28,657 bases of DNA. Source: a virus. The stretch lies in IMG/VR virus record IMGVR_UViG_3300020405_000726, positions 1-28,657 of that record; one strand, given 5' to 3'. This document shows positions 7,430-28,634 of this stretch, piece after piece. Within the stretch, counting starts at the first letter, position 1; each line of letters begins with the position of its first letter. The translations under genes were made by a program, and so were the position numbers. The notes under the pieces were generated by a model. The model had not been told where the DNA came from. It made no database searches and saw nothing but the letters and a program-made list of their open reading frames with translations.

Positions 7430-7434
7430 GTCGT

Positions 7435-7699: not shown

Positions 7700-7723
7700 T
7701 AGGTAATCTAACGTATATATTAC

Positions 7724-8225: not shown

Positions 8226-8251
8226 TTACTTTATGTTGCAAATCTTTACAT

Positions 8252-8280
8252 ATTATATAGTAAAAAAGGAACCCTGTCAA
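8252..8280 (-). promoter_or_regulatory. Exact-consensus sigma70 promoter for the hli operon, inside the pstS terminator
   Basis: TTGACA (8280-8275), a 17-nt spacer and TATAAT (8257-8252) on the minus strand. The -35 box spans the hairpin loop, and the hairpin's 3' arm plus T-tract form most of the spacer. Predicted start is about 8245, close to the hli ATG at 8225. Confidence 0.87.
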
Positions 8281-8288
8281 GGGTTCCT
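8262..8288 (-). terminator. Rho-independent terminator of pstS
   Basis: Perfect 9-bp stem (8280-8288 with 8267-8275), 4-nt loop (8276-8279), then a T run on the minus strand (8267-8262). It lies about 22 nt beyond the pstS stop and overlaps the hli promoter. Confidence 0.88.
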
Positions 8289-8309
8289 CTGTAGTGGTTT
8301 ATACTTATA

Positions 8310-10375: not shown

Positions 10376-10409
10376 TATTTATACTAACAGAATCTATAGA
10401 TCTTGTCAA
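10376..10409 (-). promoter_or_regulatory. Composite promoter of the 10264 gene, same design as the psbA promoter
   Basis: TTGACA (10409-10404) contains the TGA stop of the upstream glycosyltransferase gene. After 17 nt comes TAGTAT (10386-10381), preceded by TGT like an extended -10, merging into TATAAATA (10383-10376), an exact late box. A CTTAACCT sequence (10375-10368) directly follows. The leader to ATG 10264 is about 110 nt, with a small 5-bp hairpin at 10285-10303. Confidence 0.6.
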
Positions 10410-13701: not shown

Positions 13702-14552
13702 CAGTAACCATACTCCTTTTTCATTTCATCAAAGACTGCTTTGATACCGTCTTGCATATTAGTTTTAGGTAACCACCAACCCATAATGTAATTATCAGCC
13801 TCGTTTCTCTTATCCATCTGTACACTATCCTTAGCAAGACCAGGATTGATCTTAACAGATTTACCAATCAGATTAAACTGACCCATGATAATTGAAGCAA
13901 CTTCCTTAATGGATGTTGCATTGAAGGAAGTGATATGCAGAGGGTCCTCTGGTTTGAAGTCAGTGTAGTTTTCCATGATGGTCTCAAGTGCTTCGCAGCA
14001 GTCCTCAGCATAGAGGAACTGACGTTCTTCAGTGCCATCGGTCATCATCTCAAAATCACCCTCTTCAAATCCTTTCTTGATGAAGTCAGTAATGACATGA
14101 GCCTTGTCCATGTCCTTCTCAATACCATATACATTCCAGAACTTCACAGTCAGTCCTTTCAGTGATGTGGTGTAGAGTTCACCAACACGTTTCATCACAC
14201 CATAAGGAGAGTACGACATGTTGCTCATTTGAGATGATGCAAACACAAATCTCTTATTGTACTTTTCCAAAAGACCAAAGACATTTGCCATCAATCTAGT
14301 ATTGTTATTGATGAAGTCAAAGGTATTCTGATACTTCTTCAGATATCGTGAACCACCTACATCAAAGGCAAGGAAGAACACAAAGTCTGCTTGCTTGATA
14401 CAAGACTCCAACCAGGTGCTGGGGATTGCTGTGAGGTTATATTGTGCTCCAAGGTTCTTATCATACTCGATAACCTCATGACCTTTCTTACGAAGGTATT
14501 CTGTAAGGTAGGCGCCGATCTGCCCACTCGATCCAAGATTTAAAACTTTCAT
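13701..14552 (-). CDS. NAD-dependent epimerase/dehydratase (extended SDR), nucleotide-sugar enzyme
   Basis: 283 residues. LGSSGQIG (6-13) is the Rossmann GxxGxxG. FVFFLAFDVGG gives the second strand region, ASSQMS supplies the active-site Ser, and YSPYGVMKRVGE has the YxxxK pair. GGxxxIG placement and length match UDP/GDP-sugar epimerases or 4,6-dehydratases. Substrate is not determinable. A role in making a deoxy- or epimerised sugar donor for the cluster is inference. Confidence 0.87.
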   Translation of the reverse strand: MKVLNLGSSGQIGAYLTEYLRKKGHEVIEYDKNLGAQYNLTAIPSTWLESCIKQADFVFFLAFDVGGSRYLKKYQNTFDFINNNTRLMANVFGLLEKYNKRFVFASSQMSNMSYSPYGVMKRVGELYTTSLKGLTVKFWNVYGIEKDMDKAHVITDFIKKGFEEGDFEMMTDGTEERQFLYAEDCCEALETIMENYTDFKPEDPLHITSFNATSIKEVASIIMGQFNLIGKSVKINPGLAKDSVQMDKRNEADNYIMGWWLPKTNMQDGIKAVFDEMKKEYGY

Positions 14553-14561
14553 GTAATAAAA

Positions 14562-15308
14562 TCAATTACCGTAACTGTGGTTTGCTACAAAAACTTTAAA
14601 GTTCCAATTGTGTTTTTCATACTCTAGATTATTGATAACCTTAGCGTTATATCCAAGAGAAGAATCAGGAGTAAACATTGGACACCCTTCTTCGGTGATC
14701 CTTTGCAAGTTAGAATAGATTGTACCATATTTATTCATTACCTCGGACCCACCCCATGCAATGATATCAAGAATACCGTAATCCTTTACTCCAGTTTGTA
14801 TCCAATCTAATCCTGCTTGCATATCAAATACATGTAGTTTATTCGGATCATAATCTTCAAACTGACCAGGAGATTTTAAGAATACGAGATCAGATCTCAT
14901 ACGAATCACATAGTCATACTTAAAATTATTCTCTTCCTCATACTCTTTCTTTAGTTTAATTGCTTGCTCAATACCATAGAACATAGAAATCTGATTGTCC
15001 TTTGGATGACTTGCTACCCATTTAGTTTGCCATGTATCATTGAACATATCGGCAAAGTATCTAGGTTTCTCATACTTAATCTTTTTTGGTTTCCAGTTCT
15101 CGTCAATCCATTCCTTGACACCAGAGTCTGGCCAAGTGCCCTGACCAACGTCAGTTCTGAATTGAGTGCCTACAAGATCTTCATCAAACCACATATGTGC
15201 AAAAACGTCTACATCGTTCTGACCTAGACGAAAATGTTGTTTATGATTTTCATGACACTCTTGATAACTTCTAGGTCTTCCAGAGTAACATAATGCAATT
15301 CTTGTCAT
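14562..15308 (-). CDS. Putative glycosyltransferase of a poorly characterised family
   Basis: 248 residues. MTRIALCYSGRPRSYQECHE is a typical opening of uncharacterised GT-A-like proteins found in phages and algae. FKYDYVIRMRSDLVFLKS near residues 128-145 holds the R-x-R-x-D motif in the DxD position. A DSSLGYNAKV segment lies nearer the C-terminus. It overlaps the GDPD-like gene as ATGA and is surrounded by glycan genes, supporting the assignment. Sugar and linkage unknown. Confidence 0.7.
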   Translation of the reverse strand: MTRIALCYSGRPRSYQECHENHKQHFRLGQNDVDVFAHMWFDEDLVGTQFRTDVGQGTWPDSGVKEWIDENWKPKKIKYEKPRYFADMFNDTWQTKWVASHPKDNQISMFYGIEQAIKLKKEYEEENNFKYDYVIRMRSDLVFLKSPGQFEDYDPNKLHVFDMQAGLDWIQTGVKDYGILDIIAWGGSEVMNKYGTIYSNLQRITEEGCPMFTPDSSLGYNAKVINNLEYEKHNWNFKVFVANHSYGN

Positions 15309-15751
15309 GGTAACATGTAGGGGTAATCTGTACAGATGCCATAAGGCACTTCATCAATATTATGTTTGAAACTATCAACGAGATCCCATTCTAGTAAGGG
15401 GATGATAGTTTTATAATCAAAAGTTTGCTCCGTATCATGTAACCAAATCTTTCCATTTGATGTATAAGAATATGGATCACCAGTATGACAGAAAGATTGA
15501 AACACTGCACAATCTTTTGCTGCTTGTGCATTCTTACAATGTAACCAAAGATTATCCTGTCTCTTAGAGAACCAGTTCCAAGTTACCTTATACTCTGGTC
15601 TATCATGTCCCAACCAAAAATCACCATCAATTGACCATACATCAATCTCTACATCATAACCATTGCCAAGAGCACAATCAATGTAACTGGGAGCATTCTC
15701 CCTTCCAGGAACACGTCCACGAATGTTGCCTCTGTGAGATATGATTCTCAT
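15305..15751 (-). CDS. Short glycerophosphodiester-phosphodiesterase-like (GDPD/PI-PLC fold) protein
   Basis: 148 residues. ISHRGN (4-9), GREN (16-19), DVEIDVW (33-39) and FWLGHDRPEY (45-54) reproduce the GDPD signature, including both catalytic His (6 and 49) and the metal ligands Glu18, Glu35 and Asp37. The family is usually 230-300 residues, so the barrel is shortened at its C-terminal half. It hydrolyses phosphodiesters. In a sugar cluster it may release or trim a glycerophosphoryl or sugar-phosphate group, by inference. ATGA overlaps on both sides. Confidence 0.75.
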   Translation of the reverse strand: MRIISHRGNIRGRVPGRENAPSYIDCALGNGYDVEIDVWSIDGDFWLGHDRPEYKVTWNWFSKRQDNLWLHCKNAQAAKDCAVFQSFCHTGDPYSYTSNGKIWLHDTEQTFDYKTIIPLLEWDLVDSFKHNIDEVPYGICTDYPYMLP

Positions 15752-16059
15752 ACTTCCTCAATACGTAATGATTTGTCCTCAATGAAGAGGTCATAGAAAG
15801 GTTTGTCAGCACGGAGTTCGTGATACTTACAACCCCAGTCTGATAATTGTTGCTGAGTCAAATTAGTCCAATCAATTTGTTTACGACTGCCTCTTGCAGT
15901 CCAATAAACAATAGTGTTCCCTTCATCATAGAGTTTGTTGATCTTGTCAATGTTCTCTTGAATCGGTTCTGCTTTTGTATAGTCATGCACTACACCAAAA
16001 TCAGTTGATGACTCACGATTACAAATCGTTTCATCAATGTCAACATAGATTACTTTCAT
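15748..16059 (-). CDS. Small HAD-superfamily phosphatase (copy 1)
   Basis: 103 residues: DIDETIC (7-13) is HAD motif I with both Asp, IVYWTARGS is motif II, and FYDLFIEDKSLR supplies the Lys/Asp end. No cap domain, as in small capsule/LPS phosphatases acting on sugar phosphates. It is paralogous to 19709-20038 (shared KINKLYDEG, TARG, WGCKYH). ATGA overlaps link it to the aldolase and the GDPD gene. Confidence 0.85.
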   Translation of the reverse strand: MKVIYVDIDETICNRESSTDFGVVHDYTKAEPIQENIDKINKLYDEGNTIVYWTARGSRKQIDWTNLTQQQLSDWGCKYHELRADKPFYDLFIEDKSLRIEEV

Positions 16060-16727
16060 CGATACATCATTCTCCTTCGTTCTTCACTGGGGCACTTGTC
16101 AATTTCTTTCACTTCATCTTCAGATAAGAATCTAGTTTGACCCAGAACCTTAGCACCAATGAAAATTTCTGCAGACTTCTCACACATTAGAGTAGATGCA
16201 ATGCATTCTTTATGTGAGGTAGACGCTACAATTATACCATGATTCTGAAGTAGAATCAATTTGGGAAAATATCCCTCTTCTTCTATAAATGCAAGAACAC
16301 TCTTTTTAATTTCTTCAAGCAATGGTTTACCTGGCATAGCATAGGGGACAACACAAGACTTTGCACCATTTCTTACAATCTGATCGGGAAATAGTCTGTG
16401 CTCAGCAAAAGACCATATTTGCTCGGAGCACACAACCTCCATGGTCTTTGGCGGATGAGTATGTGCAACAAATTTAATTCCATCAAACTCTCTCTGGAAC
16501 CATGCATGAAACCCTGTTTCAATACTTGGTTTAAGACCTAGAGAATCAAAAGGCACACCACTCATCTTACATGCAACAAGATCTGTCTTGCTGAGAGTAT
16601 CAAGCGAAGTCCCACTTGCTTTCACCCAAAAACAATCATCAGACTTCACATCCTTCATAGAGACATTACCTTCACCACAAATGGCATAGGATCCCAGCAA
16701 GTGTGCTAGTTCTAAGAGGTTATCCAT
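16056..16727 (-). CDS. Class II aldolase/adducin-family protein
   Basis: 223 residues. GEGNVSMK (18-25), VKASGTSLD (about 35-43), ETGFHAWFQ and AHTHPPKTMEV (the HxH zinc ligands), and LLQNHGIIVA (third His) form the class II aldolase active site. Known members include fuculose- and rhamnulose-phosphate aldolases and ribulose-5-phosphate 4-epimerase. Substrate cannot be told from sequence. In this cluster it may make or rearrange a sugar phosphate upstream of activation. It overlaps the GT61 gene by 16 nt. Confidence 0.87.
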   Translation of the reverse strand: MDNLLELAHLLGSYAICGEGNVSMKDVKSDDCFWVKASGTSLDTLSKTDLVACKMSGVPFDSLGLKPSIETGFHAWFQREFDGIKFVAHTHPPKTMEVVCSEQIWSFAEHRLFPDQIVRNGAKSCVVPYAMPGKPLLEEIKKSVLAFIEEEGYFPKLILLQNHGIIVASTSHKECIASTLMCEKSAEIFIGAKVLGQTRFLSEDEVKEIDKCPSEERRRMMYR

Positions 16728-17818
16728 GCAGTTAAAATTTTGGATAGTTTATTTAGATCTACTTTCCAAGGTGAATTTAGTCCTCCAGAAATAGATAATG
16801 ATCCATCACTCTCAACAGACTCTTCTTTCTTGTCAGTAAATTCAGTGTACTCAAAATGAGTAAGGTCTGTATGCTCCATAGAATATCCAAATCTAAAGTT
16901 CACATCGAAGAAAGTTGGACTGTTGATAGATAGAACTTTAGTTTCTGGTGGAGAGAATATGACATTACACATACCTCCACCGATTGGTCCTGCAACATAC
17001 TTTGCAGACCTAAACATACCAATCTTTTCCTCCATTGTCAAGTTCTCACAGAAAATTTCTTTGAAACCCTGATCAATAAACATCTGTGCAACTTCATCCT
17101 CATTAATACACTTACGACGTTCTGTGTAGTTCGTTCCAATGTTTGAAGTATCACTATTCAACCAGGTACGACGAGAGATGTATATCTTTTCAGGTCCAAC
17201 ATAATCACTCTTCATCTGATTAAGAATTTCAAATACACCTTTATGTGGAGGACAGTTGGATAAACCATTATGTGTCAATGATGATGAGACACAGACACGA
17301 TTATACATCACATCCGTGTTAAGAAACACAACATCCTTTCTAGTAATACCCAACAACTCCAGGCTGTCCCATACGAAAGGGTAGAGATCATCTTTCCCTT
17401 CAGGAGGGCTGACAAGTAACTTCATGTCGGGATGAATCTTCTTTTCGTTAAAGTATGCATAAAGATATGGCAAAGTATCATATAGAAAATGATAATAGTT
17501 TGCCATATTATATACAAAGAAAAACATTGGAATATCGCATGTTTTCCCAAGAGGAAGATGCTCTATCTCATACGACATGTCCCCATCTTCATACACAGTT
17601 CCTCTGTTTAAGGACATGAACTTTTCCCTAAGAGGGAGATAGAGTTTCTTTGTTTGATATGAATATAAAAGTGGCAGTGGATAATGTTTTGATAGTCCAG
17701 TAAATTTTACAAAGTTAAAATATGCTGCTTCTATTGTTCTGCTATTTTTATCAGTAGCAGTTATTCTTCTTGTCGGACCTTGATCCCAATATCTAATTGG
17801 TAAGGTAATCTTTGCCAT
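16712..17818 (-). CDS. GT61-like (DUF563) glycosyltransferase
   Basis: About 368 residues from ATG 17818 (MAKITLPIRYWDQGPTRR); ATG 17824 would add two. The longer reading from 17920 copies the out-of-frame end of the upstream gene and is unlikely. FFFVYNMANYYHFLYDTLPY (N-x-x-H region), KIYISRRTWLN and AKYVAGPIGGGMCNVIFSPP are the DUF563/GT61 signatures. The family includes eukaryotic EOGT-type and bacterial capsule transferases. It overlaps its neighbour by 26 nt. Donor unknown. Confidence 0.87.
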   Translation of the reverse strand: MAKITLPIRYWDQGPTRRITATDKNSRTIEAAYFNFVKFTGLSKHYPLPLLYSYQTKKLYLPLREKFMSLNRGTVYEDGDMSYEIEHLPLGKTCDIPMFFFVYNMANYYHFLYDTLPYLYAYFNEKKIHPDMKLLVSPPEGKDDLYPFVWDSLELLGITRKDVVFLNTDVMYNRVCVSSSLTHNGLSNCPPHKGVFEILNQMKSDYVGPEKIYISRRTWLNSDTSNIGTNYTERRKCINEDEVAQMFIDQGFKEIFCENLTMEEKIGMFRSAKYVAGPIGGGMCNVIFSPPETKVLSINSPTFFDVNFRFGYSMEHTDLTHFEYTEFTDKKEESVESDGSLSISGGLNSPWKVDLNKLSKILTAWITS

Positions 17819-19370
17819 AGTCATAAGGATGCCAATCCACTTTATGAAAAAACTCTTGCCAGTATCTATACGTCTTGAGATCATTGGGAGTTCCCCAACA
17901 AATATAGTGATCGATCTCAAAGTTCTTCACTGTATAACCTAAATCAATAGCAGCGTTAAGCAAACTATCAACATAGAATTCTCCGTTTACTTTTTCGTTC
18001 ATCTCAAATAATCTCACAAGAGATTTATTGTAAACTTTCTTATCTCTGAAGAACATTGTTCCCACTATAGCATACTCATCTACAGGATTCTCTCCGGTAA
18101 ACTTCTTGACATTTACTTTCTTGATAGTATCATTCGCATCAACCTCCAACCAGGAATACATGTTGGGATTATGATGTGCTGTATAATTATTTCTGTAACT
18201 CCATACGACAATATCGTTATTCTGATCCTCAATCAGATCAGCAAACTTATCAGAGTCGTACAATGCTCCATTATCACATGCGGAAAGTAAGATTGAAGTA
18301 TCATCGTCGATCTTTTCTACAATCTTTGATGTTGTAATGGACTGACCCTCTGCAGGAGTTTCTTTTAACCATACAACCTCTGGATACTCTTCTAACGGCA
18401 TCATACTCATATGAGATTCAAGAGCACCAAAGATTGTTTTATCTGTCTCTGGCAGACATTTAACTGCCTGGTCAACCATGTACTCACCATTAACCATAAG
18501 GAATGGTTTCGGTACACCATACCCTTCCTTTGAAAATCTACTACCAGCACCAGCCATGGGAAGTGCGGTTACACATCCCTTAAGTTTTAACTTACTCTTG
18601 ATATCAACTACTGCACGATAGTAATCAGACCATTGCTGATACATCTTCACATCTAGTGGTGTTCCCCACTGAAGCATGTTTGGAACCTCATATACAGTGT
18701 TGTATAATCCATCCCTGATCATCAGATTATGAACCAAACTGACATAATATTCTCCGTTGATATTGACATCTTCGTCAATCAACTGTTGAAAATAGTGCTT
18801 AACATACTTACCTTTCTTAAAGTAATAGGTGCCAGTAGAAGCATATTCAGACATCTTATTGTCTGTAAACGGTTGCTTTTCTCTAATTTCTTCAATCTGA
18901 TATGATCCCTCTCTCAATCTACAAAATGCATAATTATCACTACCCAACATATGAGGATGAAATCCAGTGTAGGAAATCACACAACCATCACAGTCAGTGT
19001 CAGTCACATGAGAAACAAAGTCGTCATAGTCCCACTTCATTGAGAAGTCGCAGTAGTTAACAATGACCTGCTCCTCGTCATCAATATCATTCAGTGCTTG
19101 GAGAACACTATGAACTGGACCTAATTTATGAGGATCAATAACTTTGATTGAAGATCCCTCAGGAAGTTTACGAAGCAAGAGACCTGCAATGACTGTTTCA
19201 TCATGATTCTTCCTATTCAGAATACAGACGAATTCAGTATCCTTAGGATAGAGATCAATAATATGTTCAATTACAGTCTTGCCATCTATTTTTAACAAAT
19301 ACTTTGGTAAAGTATAACCAGCATCCATGAACCTACGGCTCATGCCAGACATAGGGATAACAACTTTCAT
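17793..19370 (-). CDS. Fused double sugar-phosphate nucleotidyltransferase
   Basis: 525 residues made of two homologous NTP_transferase modules. Module 1 (1 to ~260): IPMSGMSRRF...LPKYLLKIDG, metal-site CDFS at 107-110, ending QWGTPLDVKMYQQW. Module 2 (~265-525): LPMAGAGSRF...VPKPFLMVNG, CDNG at 365-368, ending CWGTPNDLKTYRYW. Single modules of this type activate sugar phosphates with NTP (RmlA, mannose-1-P guanylyltransferase, etc.). Module 1 departs from the usual GxGxR (GMSRR for GAGSR), so it may have a changed substrate or be non-catalytic. The nucleotide and sugar are not predictable. It ends overlapping the GT61 gene. Confidence 0.85.
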   Translation of the reverse strand: MKVVIPMSGMSRRFMDAGYTLPKYLLKIDGKTVIEHIIDLYPKDTEFVCILNRKNHDETVIAGLLLRKLPEGSSIKVIDPHKLGPVHSVLQALNDIDDEEQVIVNYCDFSMKWDYDDFVSHVTDTDCDGCVISYTGFHPHMLGSDNYAFCRLREGSYQIEEIREKQPFTDNKMSEYASTGTYYFKKGKYVKHYFQQLIDEDVNINGEYYVSLVHNLMIRDGLYNTVYEVPNMLQWGTPLDVKMYQQWSDYYRAVVDIKSKLKLKGCVTALPMAGAGSRFSKEGYGVPKPFLMVNGEYMVDQAVKCLPETDKTIFGALESHMSMMPLEEYPEVVWLKETPAEGQSITTSKIVEKIDDDTSILLSACDNGALYDSDKFADLIEDQNNDIVVWSYRNNYTAHHNPNMYSWLEVDANDTIKKVNVKKFTGENPVDEYAIVGTMFFRDKKVYNKSLVRLFEMNEKVNGEFYVDSLLNAAIDLGYTVKNFEIDHYICWGTPNDLKTYRYWQEFFHKVDWHPYDYGKDYLTN

Positions 19371-19371
19371 A

Positions 19372-19728
19372 TTAATCTCCTTTCTTTACTCTAATACTGT
19401 CGTCGTCGAAATGTTGTGTAGAAAATTCAAATAATTCTGAGTCGTCAATAGCAATCATCTGATGTCTTAGTCCACGATAGATATGAAATTTATCTCCTGG
19501 TTCCAAAATAATATCACTCGCTTCATCAAGACTATCAGAGTCTCCATAGTAAAGAAGAATTTTTCCTGATTGTAGATAGAAAGTTTCGTCTTTTAATTTG
19601 TGATAGTGCCAAGAGCATCTCTTTCCCTCATTCAGAAAAAGAAGTTTACCACAATACTCTTCATTATTGACGATCCATTTTTCATATCCCCATCCCTTGG
19701 GAACATGTTTAATTTCCGAAGAAGTCAT
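19372..19728 (-). CDS. Single-domain cupin, mannose-6-phosphate-isomerase/ManC C-terminal type
   Basis: 118 residues from ATG 19728, which has AAGGA 10 nt upstream; ATG 19749 is a longer alternative. KGWGYEKWIVNNEEYCGKLL followed by SWHYHKLKDETFYLQSG and GLRHQ gives the cupin metal ligands (His41, His43, Glu48, His89). The opening matches the sugar-phosphate cupins that form the isomerase domain of ManC. Standing next to the double nucleotidyltransferase suggests isomerisation of a sugar phosphate before activation, a pair often fused in bacteria. Confidence 0.82.
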   Translation of the reverse strand: MTSSEIKHVPKGWGYEKWIVNNEEYCGKLLFLNEGKRCSWHYHKLKDETFYLQSGKILLYYGDSDSLDEASDIILEPGDKFHIYRGLRHQMIAIDDSELFEFSTQHFDDDSIRVKKGD

Positions 19729-20038
19729 CAGAGTGGATTCCTTTATCATCTATGTAGTAGTCTGCTGAAGGTTTACCAAGGAACAATTGATGATACTTAC
19801 ATCCCCACAAACTTAATTGTATCTCTGTAAATTCATAGAATTCTTGTTTTGCCAGGTCTGCATTATTCTTATACCGACCCATTCCTCTGGCAGTGAGATA
19901 TACGATGGTATGACCCTCGTCGTATAGTTTATTTATTTTATCAATTCTATCCTGAATTGGCATCGCTTGTTCATATCTCATCTCCTCTGTAGGACCTGGA
20001 GTGCAGATAGTTCCATCAATATCAACTACATACCTCAT
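19709..20038 (-). CDS. Small HAD-superfamily phosphatase (copy 2)
   Basis: 109 residues: VDIDGTIC (5-12) with the two HAD Asp, IVYLTARGMG (motif II) and SADYYIDDKGIH. Related to 15748-16059 through KINKLYDEG, TARG and WGCKYHQL. Being next to the heptose-type kinase, it may act as a bisphosphate phosphatase (a GmhB-like step), although it lacks GmhB's zinc Cys pattern. Overlaps both neighbours by about 17-20 nt. Confidence 0.85.
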   Translation of the reverse strand: MRYVVDIDGTICTPGPTEEMRYEQAMPIQDRIDKINKLYDEGHTIVYLTARGMGRYKNNADLAKQEFYEFTEIQLSLWGCKYHQLFLGKPSADYYIDDKGIHSDDFFGN

Positions 20039-20780
20039 TTACATCCCTCTCAGATAATACATAAGTTCCAAAGTGTGTTACAGCAATTGCTGCTGCTTTA
20101 TTTGCATAAGGTATTGCTGTCTCTATTTTACCATACAAAAGGTATAAGTAAACTAAAGCAGAAAGGAAAGTGTCTCCTGCACCACAAACATCAAAGACAC
20201 TAACCCCTATTGCTGGATAATTCTTGCCTCGATAGTCAACACCCTGTGACCCCTTAGTAACGATCAGATTAGGAGAGTCCTTTAATTCATCATCAAGTTT
20301 AGAATACTCATCATCATTGATTTTGATATATGCCTTATCAACTGGTAAATTTGTCTTCTTACTATCAATGAAGATAGGTCCATCAAACCACTCAACCAAT
20401 TCATAGATTCTTTCTGTTGTTAGAAAACCCTTGTCATAATCTGATATGACAAGAGCATCAAAATTTTCCTTAGGCAAATCATACCCAAGAGGTTTGACTG
20501 TATCCTCAACATCAACTCTGAGGAGTTGTTGATTGTATCTCTGATCAATAAATCTACGTTTAATAATTCTCTCCTCTTGAGTAAGGATATAAACTTTGAT
20601 TCCAAATGACATGAGATTTTCTCTCACGTTCCATGCCATTCCTTTTTGAGTTTTTACTTCAGTCTCTCTAAGAATAGGGACCGGAGCTTCTGGATTTAAT
20701 CTTTCGCAGATTCCATAGACATATTCATCAGAGCAACTATCCCCGATCAATAATACTTTGAATTGTTTTTGTTGTTGCAT
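20022..20780 (-). CDS. PfkB-family sugar kinase, HldA/RfaE1-like, shortened
   Basis: 252 residues. VLLIGDSCSDEYVYG (9-23), ERLNPEAPVPIL (26-37), YNQQLLRVDVED (82-93), VISDYDKGFL and DVCGAGDTFLSAL (197-209, catalytic Asp203) match the kinase half of HldE, which phosphorylates heptose 7-phosphate at C1. Between MSFGIKVYI and RRFIDQRY about 40-50 residues of the usual fold are missing, so it is a compact version. It overlaps the cytidylyltransferase-fold gene by 44 nt; together they equal a split HldE. Substrate other than heptose remains possible. Confidence 0.85.
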   Translation of the reverse strand: MQQQKQFKVLLIGDSCSDEYVYGICERLNPEAPVPILRETEVKTQKGMAWNVRENLMSFGIKVYILTQEERIIKRRFIDQRYNQQLLRVDVEDTVKPLGYDLPKENFDALVISDYDKGFLTTERIYELVEWFDGPIFIDSKKTNLPVDKAYIKINDDEYSKLDDELKDSPNLIVTKGSQGVDYRGKNYPAIGVSVFDVCGAGDTFLSALVYLYLLYGKIETAIPYANKAAAIAVTHFGTYVLSERDVNEVCS

Positions 20781-21138
20781 ACTCTTCTATTCTATCAAAG
20801 AATTTCAATTCAGCAGAATACATTGATCCAATCACTGACTTTCCTTTCCAGTCGGATCCTACAACCATTATATCAGGTCTAATGGTTTTTAAGCAATGTT
20901 CTAACTCCTCATCACTATCAAACACAACGACATGATCAACAGATTTTAAGTTTTGAAGCATAAACGATCTGTCTTTTATATTGTAGATTGGTCTAGAGGG
21001 TCCTTTCTTTTCTGTGACCCTTCTATCACTATCTATGCCAACCGTAAGAGTGTCTCCAAAAGACTTAGCATAGTTGAGGAGCTGTACGTGCCCTGGATGT
21101 AGAACATCAAACGTTCCGTTGACAAAGATATGCTTCAT
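20737..21138 (-). CDS. Nucleotidyltransferase of the cytidylyltransferase family (HldC/RfaE2-like)
   Basis: 133 residues: FVNGTFDVLHPGHVQLLNYA (5-24) with the HxGH motif, then VGIDSDRRVTEKKGPSRPI and a SIIDRG end. These match the nucleotidyltransferase half of HldE and related RfaE2/TagD proteins, which activate sugar-1-phosphates or glycerol-3-phosphate. Pairing with the adjacent kinase argues for an NDP-heptose-type donor. It overlaps neighbours by 44 and 32 nt, so the three genes are strongly coupled. Confidence 0.88.
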   Translation of the reverse strand: MKHIFVNGTFDVLHPGHVQLLNYAKSFGDTLTVGIDSDRRVTEKKGPSRPIYNIKDRSFMLQNLKSVDHVVVFDSDEELEHCLKTIRPDIMVVGSDWKGKSVIGSMYSAELKFFDRIEEYATTKTIQSIIDRG

Positions 21139-21952
21139 AAACTTTACGAATTCCGTTTGTTAAACCATCATATTCAATAGGCAGATCGTTTGCCTTTCCA
21201 ATATATGGGTATATAGGATACTGTCCCTCGGATTGAATGTCAACCTTATGAGGTCCTAAGTTATTAATAATCTCAGCAATATCACTGAGCATATACTTAC
21301 GTTCATAAACGCAATTCACATCTCTCGGTCCATCATTACCATCAAGATAATACTGAATAATCTTGTAGAGATCATCAGCATAGATGAAATCCATCTTCCG
21401 ATCCTTGATCAATTGAATTGGTTCTTTATTAATGTACCTATTGATATTGGTATTAAAAAATCTAGTATTTTCTTCATGTTCACCAAAGCATCCAAAGATA
21501 CGAAGATTCAAACCCTTTGAACTATCTAATACACGCTTAGCAATAATATATTTTGAAAATCCGTATGGATCTTCTGGAATCAATTTACCAAAATCTTCTG
21601 GAGATGGTTCCTCAACTGGAGCAGGACGACTGTATGATGCACCACTATCAAGATTAATGAACATATCAGTTTGATCAACATACTTATACAGAGTCTCAAA
21701 CATATTGAGATTAGTATACAAAACTCTATAATCATCGTCAGCATCTCTTCGACCACCAACAATGGCAGCATGAATAATAGCATCATAGTGCTGACCATCA
21801 TCAAATAGAGTTGCAACCTCTCTATCAACTTCTAGACGAACTTGAGTTGACCTGGGTCTAACTACCTCATATCCTGCCTTCTGAATAAAAGGAATAACCT
21901 GACGACCAATGAAACCATTGCCACCAGTGAAAAGAATCTTTTTATTTGTCAT
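21107..21952 (-). CDS. NAD(P)-dependent nucleotide-sugar reductase/epimerase (extended SDR)
   Basis: 281 residues. FTGGNGFIGRQVI (8-20) is the NAD(P) site, IIHAAIVGGRR the second motif, NLDSGASY the active-site Ser region and DPYGFSKY has Tyr130/Lys134. Most like GDP-fucose synthase or dTDP-4-keto-rhamnose reductase subgroups. In position after the 3-dehydrase, ThDP enzyme and PanB it could be the last reductase of a branched-sugar route (a YerF-like step), or a GDP-fucose synthase feeding the fucosyltransferases. No 4,6-dehydratase with certain identity is in the window. Confidence 0.83.
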   Translation of the reverse strand: MTNKKILFTGGNGFIGRQVIPFIQKAGYEVVRPRSTQVRLEVDREVATLFDDGQHYDAIIHAAIVGGRRDADDDYRVLYTNLNMFETLYKYVDQTDMFINLDSGASYSRPAPVEEPSPEDFGKLIPEDPYGFSKYIIAKRVLDSSKGLNLRIFGCFGEHEENTRFFNTNINRYINKEPIQLIKDRKMDFIYADDLYKIIQYYLDGNDGPRDVNCVYERKYMLSDIAEIINNLGPHKVDIQSEGQYPIYPYIGKANDLPIEYDGLTNGIRKVYEAYLCQRNV

Positions 21953-22808
21953 GTTTCCAACCTGCTCCTTGTCCTAAAAGTTTTTCTAGTTCTTCATCTT
22001 TAATTTCATAGAAGTTTTCCTGTGAAGGAAACTTGACATCACGAACCTCATTGACATATTCAGTCAGGGCAGACTGAATCATTTGTCCAGCTTCACAATA
22101 TCTTTTCACAAACTTAGACTTAAACTCCCAAAAGAGTCCAACTAAGTCATGCATGATAACCAACTGTCCATCAACTCTATCACCAGCACCAATTCCATAT
22201 ACAGGAATGTGAAGGTTAGTTGCAATCATCTCAGCAGACTCTCTAGGCATACCCTCAAGAAGTAGGAAAGTACATCCAGCATCTTGTAAACGCAGTGCCT
22301 GATCAAGAATGACCTTTGCCTGATCAGCAGTCTTACCCTGAACACGATATCCACCTAGTTTGGCACGGGTATGAGGAGTTAAACCAAGGTGACTCATGAC
22401 CATAATACCTGCATCACAGATCGCCCTGACCCTTTCTACCATACACCCCTCAACCTTAACGGCATCCATGCCTGCTTGGATGAAGTCACCGGCATTCCTT
22501 ACTGCTTCTTCATTAGAAACTTGATATGACATGTAAGGCAAGTCACCCACGGTGAATGCACGACTTGACCCCCTAGCAACTGCTCTGGCAGATCGCAGCA
22601 TATCGTCCATAGTGACTGGGATGGTGCTCTTGTACCCCAAGGTGGTCATACCAAGAGAGTCACCAACTAAAATCCAATCCACACCAGCATTATCTGCCAT
22701 AAGTGCCTGTGGATAGTCATAAGCAGTGACACCAACTGTTTTCACATTGTTTTGTTTTTGTTTGCGTAACTTTAGAATAGTTACCTTATCTTTATTATCA
22801 GCAGGCAT
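21942..22808 (-). CDS. panB: Ketopantoate hydroxymethyltransferase
   Basis: 288 residues. VTAYDYPQAL, WILVGDSLGMTTLGYKSTIP, TVGDLPYMSYQ, DAVKVEG, MSHLGLTPH, LLLEGMP and YGIGAG..DGQ..IMHD cover the whole PanB active site. Asp50, Asp89, Lys118, Glu120, His140 and Glu185 match E. coli PanB residues 45, 84, 112, 114, 136 and 181. PanB adds a hydroxymethyl group from methylene-THF to ketoisovalerate (pantothenate/CoA synthesis). It lies 1 nt after the ThDP enzyme's last codon, inside a sugar cluster, so a role in C1-branching of a keto-sugar is an alternative hypothesis. Confidence 0.93.
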   Translation of the reverse strand: MPADNKDKVTILKLRKQKQNNVKTVGVTAYDYPQALMADNAGVDWILVGDSLGMTTLGYKSTIPVTMDDMLRSARAVARGSSRAFTVGDLPYMSYQVSNEEAVRNAGDFIQAGMDAVKVEGCMVERVRAICDAGIMVMSHLGLTPHTRAKLGGYRVQGKTADQAKVILDQALRLQDAGCTFLLLEGMPRESAEMIATNLHIPVYGIGAGDRVDGQLVIMHDLVGLFWEFKSKFVKRYCEAGQMIQSALTEYVNEVRDVKFPSQENFYEIKDEELEKLLGQGAGWKHDK

Positions 22809-22809
22809 A

Positions 22810-24495
22810 TTAGTCTAAGGGCTTAATGATCATATTATCATGAAATTCCTCTCTCGACAAGAAAGGATACATGTCTTCTAAAGGTGGTGCGCTAATCGTA
22901 CCATCTGCATTTTTTCTACCTTGCATTGTTGGAACAACCTCTTGCCATTTTTCACAAAGAACCTCACACACGATAGGACCATCATGGTCAAGTGTAGTTC
23001 GGACTGCATGATCCAGTTCTTTTGCATCAGCATACACATGCTCAATGCCAAAACTCTTCACTACTTCACGGATATTTGGAATGGATACACCACTCTCAGC
23101 ATCGGTTCCAATCTCTCTTCCCTCGAAGAACTTCTTTTGTGTGGTGCGGATAGAAAGATAACCTTCATTGTTCCACACAAATAGTTTAACAGGAAGATTG
23201 TAATGAGCAATAGTCTGAAGTTCTTGTAAGTTCATCATAAACGAACCATCACCAGTCACTCCAATCACCTCACCATCCTTAGCAAATGCTGCACCAATAC
23301 AAGCAGGAATGGTGAATCCCATCTCTGCCTGAGAACTAGAGGTGATGAACCTTTGTGCTCCCTGAATCTCTGTTGCTTGAGCGCAAACATAGAAAGCAGA
23401 ACCAGCATCAGAGATAACTACGTCATCAATACGTTTACGATCGTTTAGAACCTTCATAAAGTAGTAAAGGTCTACTTTTTCTGACGGGTTCTCGACAGGA
23501 CAGACAGGCCACTTCTTCTTCCATAGACGACAAATCTCATTCCAATCAGTCTTATTGCGATCAAACTTATTGAGTGTAAGAAAATCCTTAGCGTCACGGT
23601 GAATAAACCGATCAATCTTTACAGTTTCTTTGGCATGTTCATCCTTATCAATATCGACAACAATTACTTTTGCGTCTCTTGCAAAGGTTTTATAGTTATA
23701 TCCAGTTACAGGAACAGATAGACGACAACCAATCACCAGAAGCAGATCACAGTTCTGCATTGCAAAGTTACCGGCACGGGTTCCTTTTATACCAACTCTA
23801 CCTACAAAGTTTGAATAGACAGATGGAAACAGATCAACTGCATTATATGAAGTAACTACAGGGATATTTGTACTTTGAACAAAATCAATAAACTCATCAC
23901 GGGCTTGAGCACAGTTGATACCATTACCTGCCAAGATAAGGGGTCTCTTTGATTTTCTCAATTCAGATTCAATGTCAAAACACTGAGCACCTTGTACGTC
24001 CATAGGAATGTCAATCCATACAGGACCAGGACGACCATGAGTAGCAATCCGAATCGCATCCTTCATAACCTCCTCAATATCCTCAGGATCATTAACCACT
24101 ACAGCATACTTTGTGATTGGTTTCACAATATCGATGATGTTTGCTTCCTGCACACCAAGATTTCTAACACCCTCTGGTGCCATATGAAGTCGGTTAACAT
24201 TACCAGACACGAAAATAACAGGAACACTGTCCTGCCATGCGTCTAGCAGTCCTGTGATGGCATTAGTACCTCCACATCCGGTGGTTACATTGACTGCTGC
24301 TAGACTATTATTGTACTTAGCATATGCTACAGCACCCATTGCTGATGCTTGTTCATGGTGATTACAAATTGGTTTGATCTTTGGATGTGCTGCTACAGCA
24401 TCATTCAAGAACATCGCACCACCACCAGTTACAAGAAAGATGTGATCACATCCAGCCTTGTAAATCTGGTCTACGACATAATCCGATACTCTCAT
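22810..24495 (-). CDS. ThDP-dependent acetolactate-synthase-like enzyme (YerE-like candidate)
   Basis: 561 residues, full length for the family. CNHHEQASAMGAVAYAK has the cofactor-activating Glu48. TTGCGGTNAITGLLDAW follows, then a central FAD-type domain (about 185-320), and GDGSFMMNLQEL...WNN (415-443) is the ThDP/Mg motif. The enzyme should decarboxylate pyruvate and transfer the two-carbon unit. In Yersinia, YerE of this family adds that unit to a 3,6-dideoxy-4-keto CDP-sugar. The direct link (ATGA overlap) with an RfbH-like 3-dehydrase favours that over branched amino-acid synthesis. No regulatory subunit gene is present. Confidence 0.83.
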   Translation of the reverse strand: MRVSDYVVDQIYKAGCDHIFLVTGGGAMFLNDAVAAHPKIKPICNHHEQASAMGAVAYAKYNNSLAAVNVTTGCGGTNAITGLLDAWQDSVPVIFVSGNVNRLHMAPEGVRNLGVQEANIIDIVKPITKYAVVVNDPEDIEEVMKDAIRIATHGRPGPVWIDIPMDVQGAQCFDIESELRKSKRPLILAGNGINCAQARDEFIDFVQSTNIPVVTSYNAVDLFPSVYSNFVGRVGIKGTRAGNFAMQNCDLLLVIGCRLSVPVTGYNYKTFARDAKVIVVDIDKDEHAKETVKIDRFIHRDAKDFLTLNKFDRNKTDWNEICRLWKKKWPVCPVENPSEKVDLYYFMKVLNDRKRIDDVVISDAGSAFYVCAQATEIQGAQRFITSSSQAEMGFTIPACIGAAFAKDGEVIGVTGDGSFMMNLQELQTIAHYNLPVKLFVWNNEGYLSIRTTQKKFFEGREIGTDAESGVSIPNIREVVKSFGIEHVYADAKELDHAVRTTLDHDGPIVCEVLCEKWQEVVPTMQGRKNADGTISAPPLEDMYPFLSREEFHDNMIIKPLD

Positions 24496-25763
24496 TTTTC
24501 AAACGAATCAACAACAGTGCCAACATATTCAATCATCTCTTCAGTGATTGTTGGAGAACAACCAACAAAGAAGACCAGATCAAGTACCTTACAAGCATTC
24601 GGATAGTTCCGATAATAATCAAGATGACGATACCCAGGATGCATCAAGATATTGCCAGCAAAATAGTTACGAGTTTGAACTTTATTATCTTCCAAGTGCT
24701 TGGTGAGTTTAGTCTTAGTATCTACACTATCACAAATAATAGGAACACCAAACCAACTGGTCTCTGCTTCAGGTAGTTCATTCACACTGCGAACACCAGG
24801 AATACGATCAAAGATTTCTTGCATCAGAACTTTGTTCTTACGACGCAGACGATGAATCTCATCCTGCTTAGTCAGTTGAACGGTTCCGATAGCACCTTGA
24901 AAGTCCATGGGCTTCAAGTTGTAACCCATCTGAGAATACACATACTTATGATCAATGATACCATCGTAGTGCTCAATCCACTTGTCAAATCGTTTGCCAC
25001 AAGTTCCACAAGCAAGTAGATTTTGCTGACCAACACAATAGCAATCACGACCCCACCATGCCAAACTACGGGCAATGTTGATCAATTCCTCATCATCAGA
25101 GGAAATCATACCACCCTCACCAGTGCAGATGTGGTGAGCAGGATAGAAAGAGCAAGATGCTGCAATAGAATGGTCAGTAAGGAAACGACCATTCCACTTG
25201 CTACCCAGACTGTCACAATTGTCTGAGATCAACATGATCTTATTACGATCACAGATATCCAAAATATCATCTAAGTTATATGGATTACCAAGAACAGGAG
25301 AAGAGAACAAAGCACGGGTTTTAGTAGAAACCTTATCCTCTATCTCATCAATACTCCAGTTCAAATCAGAAAAATCAATATCAACAAAGACTGGTTTCAG
25401 ACCATTCTGAACGATAGGAGCAATGGTGGTAGGGAAACCAACGCATGACACAATGATCTCATCACCATCTTGCCAACCAAATCTTTTCTTCAGTGCAGCG
25501 ATCATGACAAGGTTAGCAGAACTACCAGAGTTCACCATCAAAGAGTAACCCTTATTGAATTGTTTAGAGAACTTCTTCTCAAACTCATACACCTTCTCAC
25601 CAGATGCCAACCACTTACCATTTAGAAGTCCGTTGACAGCTGCTCCCAACTCTTGATTATCCCAGTAAGGACCAGAATAATATACAGGATTGCCTGGTTC
25701 CCATTTACTATTTGCAAAATAAGGAGGATTTACGTCTTTAAGAAGTGCTTCAATATCAACCAT
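24492..25763 (-). CDS. rfbH: CDP-6-deoxy-hexulose 3-dehydrase-like DegT-family enzyme
   Basis: 423 residues from ATG 25763 (GAGG 6-7 nt upstream). DegT fold with VNSGSSANL (78-86), a PMP site and CSFYPAHHICTGEGG (204-218). A His stands where aminotransferases have the catalytic Lys, the hallmark of RfbH/E1 and ColD dehydratases. Cys183, Cys241 and Cys243 in WWGRDCYC, with a Cys before GKRF (255), fit the [2Fe-2S] ligands of RfbH/E1; the first gap is 57 residues. The last gap carries a 3-residue insertion and an extra Cys252. DHKYVYSQMGYNLKPMDFQG is also RfbH-like. It makes 3-deoxy sugars, with a reductase not found here. Confidence 0.9.
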   Translation of the reverse strand: MVDIEALLKDVNPPYFANSKWEPGNPVYYSGPYWDNQELGAAVNGLLNGKWLASGEKVYEFEKKFSKQFNKGYSLMVNSGSSANLVMIAALKKRFGWQDGDEIIVSCVGFPTTIAPIVQNGLKPVFVDIDFSDLNWSIDEIEDKVSTKTRALFSSPVLGNPYNLDDILDICDRNKIMLISDNCDSLGSKWNGRFLTDHSIAASCSFYPAHHICTGEGGMISSDDEELINIARSLAWWGRDCYCVGQQNLLACGTCGKRFDKWIEHYDGIIDHKYVYSQMGYNLKPMDFQGAIGTVQLTKQDEIHRLRRKNKVLMQEIFDRIPGVRSVNELPEAETSWFGVPIICDSVDTKTKLTKHLEDNKVQTRNYFAGNILMHPGYRHLDYYRNYPNACKVLDLVFFVGCSPTITEEMIEYVGTVVDSFEK

Positions 25764-26613
25764 TTTGAACCTCATTCAAGTAATCATTAACTTCATTAGA
25801 TACAACAGAGGACAACCAATTTCTAAATCCACCTGCTGCTCTATTTAATTGTGCAGCAGCATGTCCTCCAGCTTGGTGCATGACTTTGATACACATTGGT
25901 TCCTCTGTTTTAGGATCATCAAGGTACAGTCTATCATCTTTTACGTAAATTTGCGACCAACTTTCCCAATGATTATCGTTCTTGCCCCAATGATTGGAGA
26001 TACCATAGGAAACATTTGATCCCATGGCATCAACTATCTTTGTATTGTACATGTCTGAGTTAAAAATTTGATTCAAAGTATCCTGCTCATCACCAATTCC
26101 ATGTGCATAAGGATTGACTTCTGTTTTAATTCTAGCAGCTTCAATATTCAGATTATGCCAATCATACCAAAACTGTTTACTATTAGCACCAATCATGCCA
26201 GCATTGATAAAGTTTTGAATTGGAATCTGCTGACCATTTCCAAAAGGTGGAAGATGTGTAATCGTTATACCAAAGTCGTGTCCAGATGCTTTGTCTAAAG
26301 AATTATTATTTCGGACACCAATAATGTCTTCTTCACTCTCAAAGAACTCAGTCATTGGTCCAGTGACAACAGCATCAGCATCCAAATGAACAACCATATC
26401 ATATTCCTCGACAAAAGGAAGACAGGTGGCTGCCATCATCCAGATAGGTTTCATCCATGGCATTTCAGAGTGTATTTGTTCAGTCATCTTTGTGTCAAAA
26501 ATAACATGATCTACCTCTGGATGAAAATACTTAATTGAGTTAGCTAGTTTTTCCACACCCAAAAGTTCTGAGTAATCATCAGTACACCAAGTAGAAACTA
26601 AAATCTTTTTCAT
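25756..26613 (-). CDS. GT-A-fold glycosyltransferase (GT8-like)
   Basis: 285 residues. MVVHLDADAVVTGPM (73-87) carries the DxD in a GT8-type context, then QNFINAGMIGANSKQFW and HGIGDEQDTLNQIFN (the donor/acceptor helices of retaining GT-A enzymes). CIKVMHQAGGHAAAQ gives a C-terminal metal-ligand His. No membrane anchor. It overlaps both neighbours by a few bases (ATGA type). Sugar unknown. Confidence 0.78.
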   Translation of the reverse strand: MKKILVSTWCTDDYSELLGVEKLANSIKYFHPEVDHVIFDTKMTEQIHSEMPWMKPIWMMAATCLPFVEEYDMVVHLDADAVVTGPMTEFFESEEDIIGVRNNNSLDKASGHDFGITITHLPPFGNGQQIPIQNFINAGMIGANSKQFWYDWHNLNIEAARIKTEVNPYAHGIGDEQDTLNQIFNSDMYNTKIVDAMGSNVSYGISNHWGKNDNHWESWSQIYVKDDRLYLDDPKTEEPMCIKVMHQAGGHAAAQLNRAAGGFRNWLSSVVSNEVNDYLNEVQNG

Positions 26614-27098
26614 TTTTCCCCCATAGCCATGAATGCGTTATTTAGATCAACACCTGATACGAAGACATTATCATATCCTTTATCAATCATGTAATCACGG
26701 ATAAACTCTGGTTTCAAACAGTGCTTATGTCTCCTGTTATTCCAAGGTCTCCAATACTTTTGACTGTAATCAGGAAGATAAAGAAATAATGTACCACCTA
26801 CTTTAAGTCTTGAATACCAATAGTCCATTGTAGCAACCCAGTCGGGAACATGCTCTAAACAATGACTTGAAAAAATATAATCAGGATCAATAGGTGGTAA
26901 TTTATCTGCTTCCCATCCATTATTGAATGACAGATCGATAGGAACAGAATTAGGGAAAGCCCATTCTTGCTTCATACATCCTACATCATATCCATATCCA
27001 TTACAAACATGCATAGCAAATGGGATGGCAAACTGCGATGCATTACCAATAGTTTGAAAGTGTGGATATGTGTCCCCTTTATAATCTACTACTTGCAT
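26610..27098 (-). CDS. SAM-dependent methyltransferase-like protein, short
   Basis: 162 residues. YGYDVGCMKQ (35-44) is a compressed motif I, IDLSF motif II, PDYIFSSHCLEHVPDW (72-87) motif IV with the usual H-x-L-E-H-V, and RLKVGGTLFLYLPDY motif V/VI. The class I methyltransferase core is clear though N-terminally short. Probably caps or O-methylates a sugar. Overlaps neighbours by 4 and 10 nt. Confidence 0.78.
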   Translation of the reverse strand: MQVVDYKGDTYPHFQTIGNASQFAIPFAMHVCNGYGYDVGCMKQEWAFPNSVPIDLSFNNGWEADKLPPIDPDYIFSSHCLEHVPDWVATMDYWYSRLKVGGTLFLYLPDYSQKYWRPWNNRRHKHCLKPEFIRDYMIDKGYDNVFVSGVDLNNAFMAMGEK

Positions 27099-27802
27099 AT
27101 CATTTCATGTGGTGTACTGAAAAGGTAGTCAATCTCTTTTTCATTCTGTTCATTATGTGCAACAACCACATATCTCTCATATGAAGTGTCTAGAGTGTCA
27201 ATAATATAATTCAAAGAAGTGTTGATTGTAAACACACTCTTTGCTTTCTCAAAGACTTTACACCAATCAAGCAGTGTAAATCCATCAATATATTGAAGTT
27301 CTACAACTGGCAAGTCATAGTTTTCTGGACGCATCAGTTGACAATTTCTATTTTCATTGTAGAGATTGTTAATGAACACAAACTCAGAATCATCCTTGAG
27401 ACCAAGAACATTATAGTACAGATCATTCTCCTTATCAAACTTTCTATCAAAAGTAAACCCACTCTTCCAGTCAGTATGATCCATGTTAAGGATACTATAC
27501 TTAGAAGACATAATCTTATCATCACCAATACCCCACAGGTGAGGTCTCATGATGCCAAGGTATACAAAGTTAGGAGTAATAATAACGGAGTCCTGTCCGT
27601 AGTATTCTTTGCCAGGAAAGTTATCACTTCTAGAACAGAAAGTAATACCTTTGATGTAATCACCCAACCATAAAATATCATCCCTAAGAGGCCAGATAAT
27701 TTGATACCCCATAGAGATGTATTTCTTTGCAACTGACTGGAGATAAAAGATATCTCCAATACCAGCCCAATGATGTATAAGACAGATTTTACCCAATTTC
27801 AA
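27089..27802 (-). CDS. Putative GT-B (GT9/heptosyltransferase-like) protein
   Basis: 237 residues. KICLIHHWAGIGDIFYLQSV (5-24) resembles the opening of heptosyltransferase-type GT-B folds (a Gly-Asp followed by a helix). VVELQYIDGFTLLDWCKVFE and KSVFTINTSLNYIID resemble the donor-side C-terminal half. The protein is shorter than typical GT9 (about 320-350). The heptose-type activation genes in the cluster make this attractive, but the match is weak. Confidence 0.55.
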   Translation of the reverse strand: MKLGKICLIHHWAGIGDIFYLQSVAKKYISMGYQIIWPLRDDILWLGDYIKGITFCSRSDNFPGKEYYGQDSVIITPNFVYLGIMRPHLWGIGDDKIMSSKYSILNMDHTDWKSGFTFDRKFDKENDLYYNVLGLKDDSEFVFINNLYNENRNCQLMRPENYDLPVVELQYIDGFTLLDWCKVFEKAKSVFTINTSLNYIIDTLDTSYERYVVVAHNEQNEKEIDYLFSTPHEMICK

Positions 27803-28634
27803 AATACGTCTCCCAAATAAAATCTTCTAACATTTCCATCTTCATTGCACGTTCAAAGTTATCTTTGATCGCAGATTCCATAGACTTATAAAGATCCTCA
27901 TCTAGTTCTTCAATATCAAATCCATCTTCAAGAAACACAATACCATCTGGGTTAAACCACTTTGTAATACTAGGAGTTCCGTAGTAGATAGGAACAGTTC
28001 CAGTCAAGAAACAATCAAGGATCTTTTCTGTAAACCAATCATCAGCATTCTCAATAGCAACTGAGAACATATAATCTGCTAGTGCTTCCTCTTTATATTC
28101 TACTTCATTAAATCCACGTCCAAACAAAGGAGCATAGTCCTTCAGTTGTTCCAGCATGTGCATCCTCTGCTGGTGACCAGGAAGATGAGACTTATTAGAT
28201 GCAATGATAGAAACTAGTTTGTTCTTAGGATAGATCTGTGGTTCACGGATCCAAGATCCATTACCAGGAATCCAGCAGAACTTCTCATGTAGTTCACACA
28301 GTTCTTCATTCCAAGTAAAGATCTTCTCGTATGCATTTACATACGTATCAAGATTATTCTTAATTTCTTCAAAGAGTGGATTGAGAATCCAGCAGCACTC
28401 AAGAAGAATAGCATACTTCTTCTTACTCACGTTATCCTGTAGTCCTGCAGGGATATACCTATCAACATAAAATGTTTCATCGCCAGGAGTTAGATTATTG
28501 AACGTGAGTTGCTGCTTACCTTCACCCTCATGAATCCACTTTATATACTTAGATTCTTTCCCATGAGTTGAATATCCTTTATTCCCATTAGAAAGGTGAA
28601 TGAAGGTATCGTTTAGCAGTTTAAAATTTTTCAT
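27789..28634 (-). CDS. GT10 alpha-1,3/4-fucosyltransferase-like protein
   Basis: 281 residues. YMFSVAIENADDWFTEKILD continuing to FLTGTVPIYYG (188-219) is the GT10 signature: ENA, TEK and the G-x-V-P-x-Y-x-G donor loop for GDP-fucose. The N-terminal half is divergent, as usual in this family. No membrane anchor. Together with two GT11 enzymes it gives three fucosyltransferase-type proteins in one phage cluster. The remaining 23 nt to the window end hold no gene start. Confidence 0.88.
   Translation of the reverse strand: MKNFKLLNDTFIHLSNGNKGYSTHGKESKYIKWIHEGEGKQQLTFNNLTPGDETFYVDRYIPAGLQDNVSKKKYAILLECCWILNPLFEEIKNNLDTYVNAYEKIFTWNEELCELHEKFCWIPGNGSWIREPQIYPKNKLVSIIASNKSHLPGHQQRMHMLEQLKDYAPLFGRGFNEVEYKEEALADYMFSVAIENADDWFTEKILDCFLTGTVPIYYGTPSITKWFNPDGIVFLEDGFDIEELDEDLYKSMESAIKDNFERAMKMEMLEDFIWETYFEIG

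Follow-up and report, generated by a model that had tools for sequence, protein, structure and literature searches.

The window analysed here is the whole of a 28,657-nucleotide viral stretch (positions 1 to 28,657 of the IMG/VR record IMGVR_UViG_3300020405_000726). Its first 9.3 kb have the Synechococcus phages Bellamy and S-SM2 as closest relatives, and we therefore assign the window to a T4-like phage of marine cyanobacteria. Positions 10400–28600 carry a minus-strand run of glycan genes, including glycosyltransferases related to families 61, 8, 10, 7 and 11, a methyltransferase, short-chain dehydrogenases/reductases (SDRs) and nucleotidyltransferases. Within this run lie four genes that encode a 3-dehydrase, a lyase dependent on thiamine diphosphate (ThDP), a PanB-family enzyme and an SDR. 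Comparison of over a hundred related viral clusters suggests that this PanB makes the precursor from which the side chain of an as yet undescribed branched sugar is built. The four genes, with the residues that identify their products, are as follows.

24492..25775, minus strand: RfbH-like (DegT-fold) 3-dehydrase, 427 amino acids; His214 in place of the pyridoxal phosphate (PLP) lysine; iron–sulfur (Fe–S) cysteines 187, 245, 247 and 259
22810..24495, minus strand: YerE-like ThDP-dependent acyl-transferring lyase, 561 amino acids; GDG...NN motif at 415–417 and 442–443; catalytic Glu48
21942..22808, minus strand: PanB-family 2-keto acid hydroxymethyltransferase, 288 amino acids; D50, S51, D89, K118, E120, H140 and E185; proposed donor maker
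21107..21952, minus strand: extended SDR, 281 amino acids; YxxxK motif with Y130 and K134; proposed branch-ketone reductase

The minus strand carries intact open reading frames for all four enzymes, and adjacent ones overlap or are separated by 1 bp, in keeping with the single run described by a first-pass annotation of this DNA. The span given there, 21107–25763, does hold the four genes; however, the dehydrase reading frame begins at 25775, and 25763 is its second ATG.

Identity of the four enzymes

The best match of the dehydrase in the PDB is E1, a cytidine diphosphate (CDP)-6-deoxyhexulose 3-dehydrase (3bcx, 253 bits). H214 aligns with the E1 histidine, at the position of the PLP lysine of aminotransferases, and the four cysteines that bind the Fe–S cluster in E1 align with C187, C245, C247 and C259, with a last spacing of 11 residues versus 7. 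The histidine-for-lysine signature and Fe–S cysteines previously noted in this protein are thus borne out.

The RfbH-like gene directly adjoins that of the ThDP enzyme, which is full length, with all three thiamine pyrophosphate domains found. The nearest PDB chains are JanthE (8rph, 381 bits), a characterised YerE-like lyase that accepts ketones; 5ahk (233 bits), which we take to be PpYerE; and plant acetolactate synthase (229 bits). Residues E48, D416, G417, N442 and N443 are invariant across 20 aligned sequences. In a bootstrapped tree of 35 ThDP sequences, IlvB and IlvG form a group of their own (100/100), and the window enzyme, JanthE and all bacterial and phage relatives bar two distant phage PanB-linked lineages form one clade (100/99). 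Those two lineages fall on the same side of the tree, apart from IlvB (99/98), and 5ahk is the next branch outside the clade. The nearest cellular enzyme to the window clade, its sister at 99/95, comes from a Silvanigrella sp. metagenome-assembled genome (MAG; locus L114). A host-type IlvB identity was rejected, as the enzyme falls outside the IlvB/IlvG clade; its placement with the YerE-including family, as first proposed, agrees with the tree. Genome searches in two bacterial phyla returned few YerE-like relatives. Matches in a phage record collection were to PanB and acetolactate synthase, none closely related, and those in a plasmid collection were to IlvB and pantothenate PanB.

The PanB protein exceeds both NCBIfam cut-offs (NF001452, 316.6 versus 272 bits; TIGR00222, 277.6 versus 207.6 bits). 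Its catalytic and metal-binding residues D50, S51, D89, K118, E120, H140 and E185, at positions that we presume to match the E. coli PanB numbering, are intact and invariant in the alignment, so the gene had rightly been called intact. In a PanB tree sampled without cyanobacterial sequences, phage PanBs form a single clade (support 83) and group with PanB paralogs from Bacillota and Methylobacterium (95 to 99), and the fetched neighbourhoods of these paralogs contain no panC. The panB–panC enzymes sampled in the same tree lie outside this grouping. None of the phage PanB loci yielded a PanC or PanD homolog, whereas bacterial panB adjoins panC in most of the annotated neighbourhoods checked. 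Substitutions specific to the phage PanBs lie next to the catalytic His and Glu, and are compatible with, without proving, a changed keto acid.

Four Bacillota genomes (G061, G080, G087 and G092; loci L386–L396) carry two to four PanB copies each. Some copies adjoin TRAP or tripartite transporters and dehydrogenases, not panC, and none of the extra copies fetched is beside a ThDP or RfbH gene. Of the cellular PanBs sampled, these are the nearest to the phage enzymes, and their keto acid substrates may be different ones. A second type of phage PanB, with GDSGGM for GDSLGM and approximately 43–46% identity to the window protein, also adjoins a YerE-like ThDP gene (L032, L233 at 7388–8320, L235, L239 and L316). 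Three records filed as phage (MW495066.1, CAKLQH020000014.1 and AFYI01000001.1) have bacterial panB–panC neighbourhoods and look like bacterial contigs or contamination; in MW495066, panB, panC and suf genes occur together.

PEP (phosphoenolpyruvate) mutase is a member of the PanB superfamily. A phosphonate route (PEP mutase, phosphonopyruvate decarboxylase and 2-aminoethylphosphonate transaminase) was considered and rejected, as the Pfam and NCBIfam matches are clearly to PanB, a ThDP lyase and an RfbH-like protein.

The glycine motif and YxxxK of the SDR are conserved in an alignment of 43 sequences. No close solved relative was found by sequence; the confidently predicted structure (predicted local distance difference test score, 95.8) most resembles guanosine diphosphate (GDP)-fucose synthase and GDP-heptose C4 reductases, and this modelled fold, that of sugar C4 reductases and epimerases, fits a nucleotide-sugar reductase.

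Conserved linkage and exchange of the PanB partner

The gene set recurs widely across viral contigs. A search with the ThDP protein yielded 33 loci, with PanB in all of them save where the contig ends, and a search with PanB placed a YerE-like ThDP gene beside it in 80 of 80 loci, among the matches listed. Once near-copies were removed, the two genes adjoined each other directly in 74 of 75 cases, at a median distance of 4 bp; this co-occurrence is not chance. Wherever a DegT-fold gene is within reach in the viral ThDP loci, it has histidine for the PLP lysine (104 of 104 loci). The DegT-fold proteins belong to several subfamilies, some of them ColD-like and without Fe–S cysteines, so that the constant phage partner of PanB and the ThDP enzyme is a 3-dehydrase of any subfamily. 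With the ThDP enzyme apart from IlvB, PanB apart from the panB–panC enzymes sampled and the gene set recurring so widely, none of the three results that would have spoken against the branched-sugar reading of the first-pass annotation was obtained.

PanB is not the only gene found in this position; more distant phage loci have others. Among 134 non-redundant ThDP genes, with partners counted within three genes, the slot holds PanB in 75 cases, NeuB in 21, an HpcH/HpaI aldolase in 8, an HMGL-type aldolase in 7 and none of these in 23. Exactly one of the four partners is present in 111 of the 134, and two occur together in no case; in shuffled data the number of cases with two had a mean of 19.7 and a minimum of 10. 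The shuffle ignores relatedness, and we rely more on repeated change: the ThDP tree requires at least eight changes among the four slot labels, and PanB occurs on three or more ThDP lineages. All 30 non-PanB slot proteins that were scanned are confirmed by Pfam (17 NeuB, 7 HpcH and 6 HMGL). PanB, HMGL-type pyruvate aldolases, HpcH/HpaI aldolases and NeuB each give 2-oxo acids with a 4-hydroxy group. We take RhmA to be an enzyme of the HpcH/HpaI type. It makes 4-hydroxy-2-oxobutanoate from pyruvate and formaldehyde (PMC8879981).

A bacterial version of the cluster is found in L114, where the gene order is RfbH–DdhD–GT–RfbF–RfbG–ThDP–MhpF–MhpE–SDR. Beside the ThDP gene are an MhpF-type acetaldehyde dehydrogenase (377 bits; cut-off, 282) and a 4-hydroxy-2-oxovalerate aldolase (396 bits; cut-off, 286).

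Other arrangements occur at the slot. In L258 (7406–8998), L257, L261, L267 and L272, no keto-acid-forming enzyme is encoded ahead of the ThDP gene; the slot there is taken by genes for DJ-1/PfpI, KPWGYE-type cupin-like and small HAD proteins. In two loci (L264, 10776–12700; L276, 10814–12778), the HMGL version adjoins two genes conserved as a pair, one for a protein of approximately 450 amino acids that has a phosphoribosyltransferase-like domain, the other for a HAD phosphatase. L095 (9872–13956), L058 and L060 have the order PanB, a very divergent YerE-like ThDP enzyme (approximately 33% identity to that of the window) and a ColD-like 3-dehydrase without Fe–S cysteines; the acceptor there may be a different, perhaps GDP-linked, sugar.

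Downstream of the SDR, the same operon continues with four further genes.

20737..21138, minus strand: RfaE domain II-like nucleotidyltransferase, overlapping the SDR gene
20022..20780, minus strand: PfkB/HldE domain I-like sugar kinase
19709..20038, minus strand: HAD phosphatase (EcbF/BcbF-like)
19372..19749, minus strand: cupin protein

This block (19372–21138) is found again in many related loci and looks like a separate nucleotide-sugar activation set in which the halves of HldE are split. Beyond it on the minus strand are a single protein of 525 amino acids with a tandem pair of matches to nucleoside triphosphate-transferase (MobA-like) domains (17793–19370) and, inside the glycan gene run, a protein of the class II aldolase/adducin family (16056–16727).

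Proposed pathway and alternatives

From the gene identities, catalytic residues, conserved linkage and exchange of PanB with other families that form 2-oxo-4-hydroxy acids, we infer the substrates of the module, the order of its steps, its product and its purpose. We consider it probable that the four genes constitute a phage-borne module for a C-4-branched 3,6-dideoxy sugar, with PanB making the donor. As the first step, PanB would hydroxymethylate a free 2-keto acid, with methylene-tetrahydrofolate as the one-carbon source, to form a 2-oxo-4-hydroxy acid; candidate substrates are pyruvate (giving 4-hydroxy-2-oxobutanoate), 2-oxobutanoate and the classical 2-oxoisovalerate (giving ketopantoate). 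We favour pyruvate or 2-oxobutanoate because two methyl groups next to its keto group should leave a donor too crowded to react with a ketone acceptor. The RfbH-like enzyme would strip the 3-hydroxyl from CDP-4-keto-6-deoxyglucose. Both this substrate and the electrons, the latter perhaps via ferredoxin, would need to come from the host. The YerE-like enzyme would then decarboxylate the PanB product and transfer the acyl part to the C-4 ketone of CDP-4-keto-3,6-dideoxyglucose, yielding a tertiary alcohol that bears a hydroxyacyl branch. The branch ketone would be reduced by the SDR, and neighbouring glycosyltransferases would transfer the sugar to a glycan of the host or of the virion, possibly as an alteration of the host surface during infection or as a decoration of the virion.

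PanB is placed first because the slot families make 2-oxo-4-hydroxy acids, because an acetaldehyde dehydrogenase and an aldolase adjoin the ThDP gene in L114 and because ErwE, a YerE-like enzyme, uses such donors: ErwE prefers 4-hydroxy-2-oxobutanoate, -pentanoate and -hexanoate, and MMAR_2332 is similar (PMC12247030). Part of the pathway set out in the first-pass annotation (3-deoxygenation of a nucleotide sugar, followed by its branching by a ThDP enzyme and by reduction) is retained here, whereas its placement of PanB after branching is not: slot exchange, L114 and the kept keto-acid residues all argue for the reverse. Since donor synthesis by PanB ahead of branching is the likelier order, the two-carbon branch proposed there is probably incorrect.

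Several observations weigh against this proposal. The dehydrase misses the RfbH equivalog cut-off (368.6 versus 423 bits), and we therefore name it RfbH-like only. No homolog of the RfbH reductase partner (DdhD/E3) was found in the window or in the phage loci searched, only in L114, nor were enzymes of the CDP-glucose route to CDP-4-keto-6-deoxyglucose found in the window or, within the extent of the search, in the PanB phage loci; both absences from the window had been pointed out before. The exclusivity of the slot stems partly from shared ancestry, as slot types cluster by ThDP clade. The rule of one partner is also incomplete, with none of the four at 23 of 134 genes and approximately ten loci that have a DJ-1/PfpI gene nearby instead. 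The HMGL and NeuB proteins found at the slot in phages fall short of the equivalog cut-offs for the named enzymes, so that their exact products are predicted. The keto acids favoured above for PanB are preferred on steric grounds, not from its sequence.

Two alternatives are each improbable. According to the first, which is the order originally suggested, the 4-keto sugar first receives a pyruvate-derived acetyl group from the ThDP enzyme; the methyl ketone of this branch is then hydroxymethylated by PanB and lastly reduced by the SDR. In favour of this order, the gene set is confirmed and the ThDP enzyme is YerE-like, and an alpha-hydroxy ketone could in principle chelate the Mg2+ of PanB. 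However, in place of PanB the slot can hold members of families whose substrates are free pyruvate or PEP, the related cluster L114 makes a free 4-hydroxy-2-keto acid instead, and PanB, with all its keto-acid and metal-binding residues kept, would need to admit a CDP-sugar ketone that lacks a carboxylate. As the maker of the donor, PanB would stay on its own kind of substrate.

The second, to which we likewise give little weight, holds that the PanB product is used elsewhere, for instance as a ketopantoate-derived substituent of another sugar, and that the ThDP enzyme makes a yersiniose-like acetyl branch from pyruvate; the two genes would lie together because they contribute to a single glycan. 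Some YerE-like enzymes may need no donor other than pyruvate, given the 23 of 134 loci without any of the four partners, and pyruvate is preferred by Yersinia YerE (PMC12247030). Against this stand the immediate adjacency of PanB and the ThDP gene in nearly every case, on at least three ThDP lineages, and the replacement of the partner by functionally similar families without a second one ever joining.

Very unlikely, and the weakest of the three, is that PanB and the ThDP enzyme act as auxiliary metabolic genes boosting host pantothenate and coenzyme A (CoA) or branched-chain amino acid synthesis, with an incidental sugar-gene setting: PanB does exceed the pantothenate-family cut-offs and viral pantoate transferase genes have been so read (PMC8940887), but panC and panD are in no phage PanB locus while bacterial panB mostly adjoins panC where checked, the ThDP enzyme is outside the IlvB clade, phage PanB groups with bacterial paralogs whose fetched neighbourhoods lack panC, and the 3-dehydrase linkage is constant.

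With PanB as donor maker, a wider and more tentative proposal, which we rate a little short of evenly balanced, is that marine and freshwater viruses share an exchangeable pathway to branched 3-deoxy sugars, in which a fixed core of 3-dehydrase and YerE-like ThDP enzyme is combined with a swappable side-chain gene (PanB, NeuB, HpcH/HpaI or HMGL). The PanB version might then give a new hydroxymethyl-extended branch, for example a 4-C-(1,3-dihydroxypropyl)-3,6-dideoxyhexose, and viral PanB might generally be a glycan gene rather than a vitamin gene.

If the donor role of PanB is correct, a vitamin B5 enzyme has been turned into the one-carbon extension step of sugar branching. No sugar pathway with a PanB step was found described in the open-access literature searched, as the first-pass annotation had also supposed. 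The gene beside the ThDP gene would then offer a simple rule for guessing the side chain made by uncharacterised YerE-like enzymes, of which more than 200 are predicted by the count of a review (PMC12247030). In an oxygen-minimum-zone virome, pantoate transferase genes were the most abundant of several vitamin-synthesis genes and were read as boosting CoA (PMC8940887). Viral genes read in this way as vitamin B5 genes may be surface-sugar genes and may need re-reading.

Relation to known systems

We regard the module as a variant of the YerE-type branched-sugar pathway, and as a new one. Its PanB shares family, fold and every catalytic residue with pantothenate PanB, and differs in having no panC or panD neighbours, in forming a separate clade, in the substitutions beside catalytic residues and in a C-terminal extension. 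JanthE (Janthinobacterium sp. HH01, 8rph), the nearest solved relative of the ThDP enzyme and a member of the same clade, takes ketones and varied donors in vitro; its ThDP motif has CDG where the window enzyme has GDG.

Yersiniose A synthesis (YerE and YerF) likewise combines RfbH-type 3-deoxygenation, ThDP-dependent branching at C-4 and, as proposed for the window, reduction of the branch ketone. Unlike the window enzyme as we read it, YerE favours pyruvate, makes a two-carbon branch and is not known to have a PanB-like partner. Erwiniose and caryophyllose synthesis (ErwE and MMAR_2332) is similar in its YerE-like ThDP enzyme, in the acceptor CDP-4-keto-3,6-dideoxyglucose (for ErwE) and in a 4-hydroxy-2-keto acid donor, the last being proposed for the window; in the accessible part of the source (PMC12247030) no PanB is described for these sugars, whereas the window has phage genes and a donor that would be made by folate-dependent hydroxymethylation. 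In L114, as in the window, RfbH, a related ThDP enzyme and an SDR are encoded in one cluster, but a 4-hydroxy-2-oxovalerate aldolase and an acetaldehyde dehydrogenase replace PanB, and the cluster carries its own genes for CDP-sugar supply.

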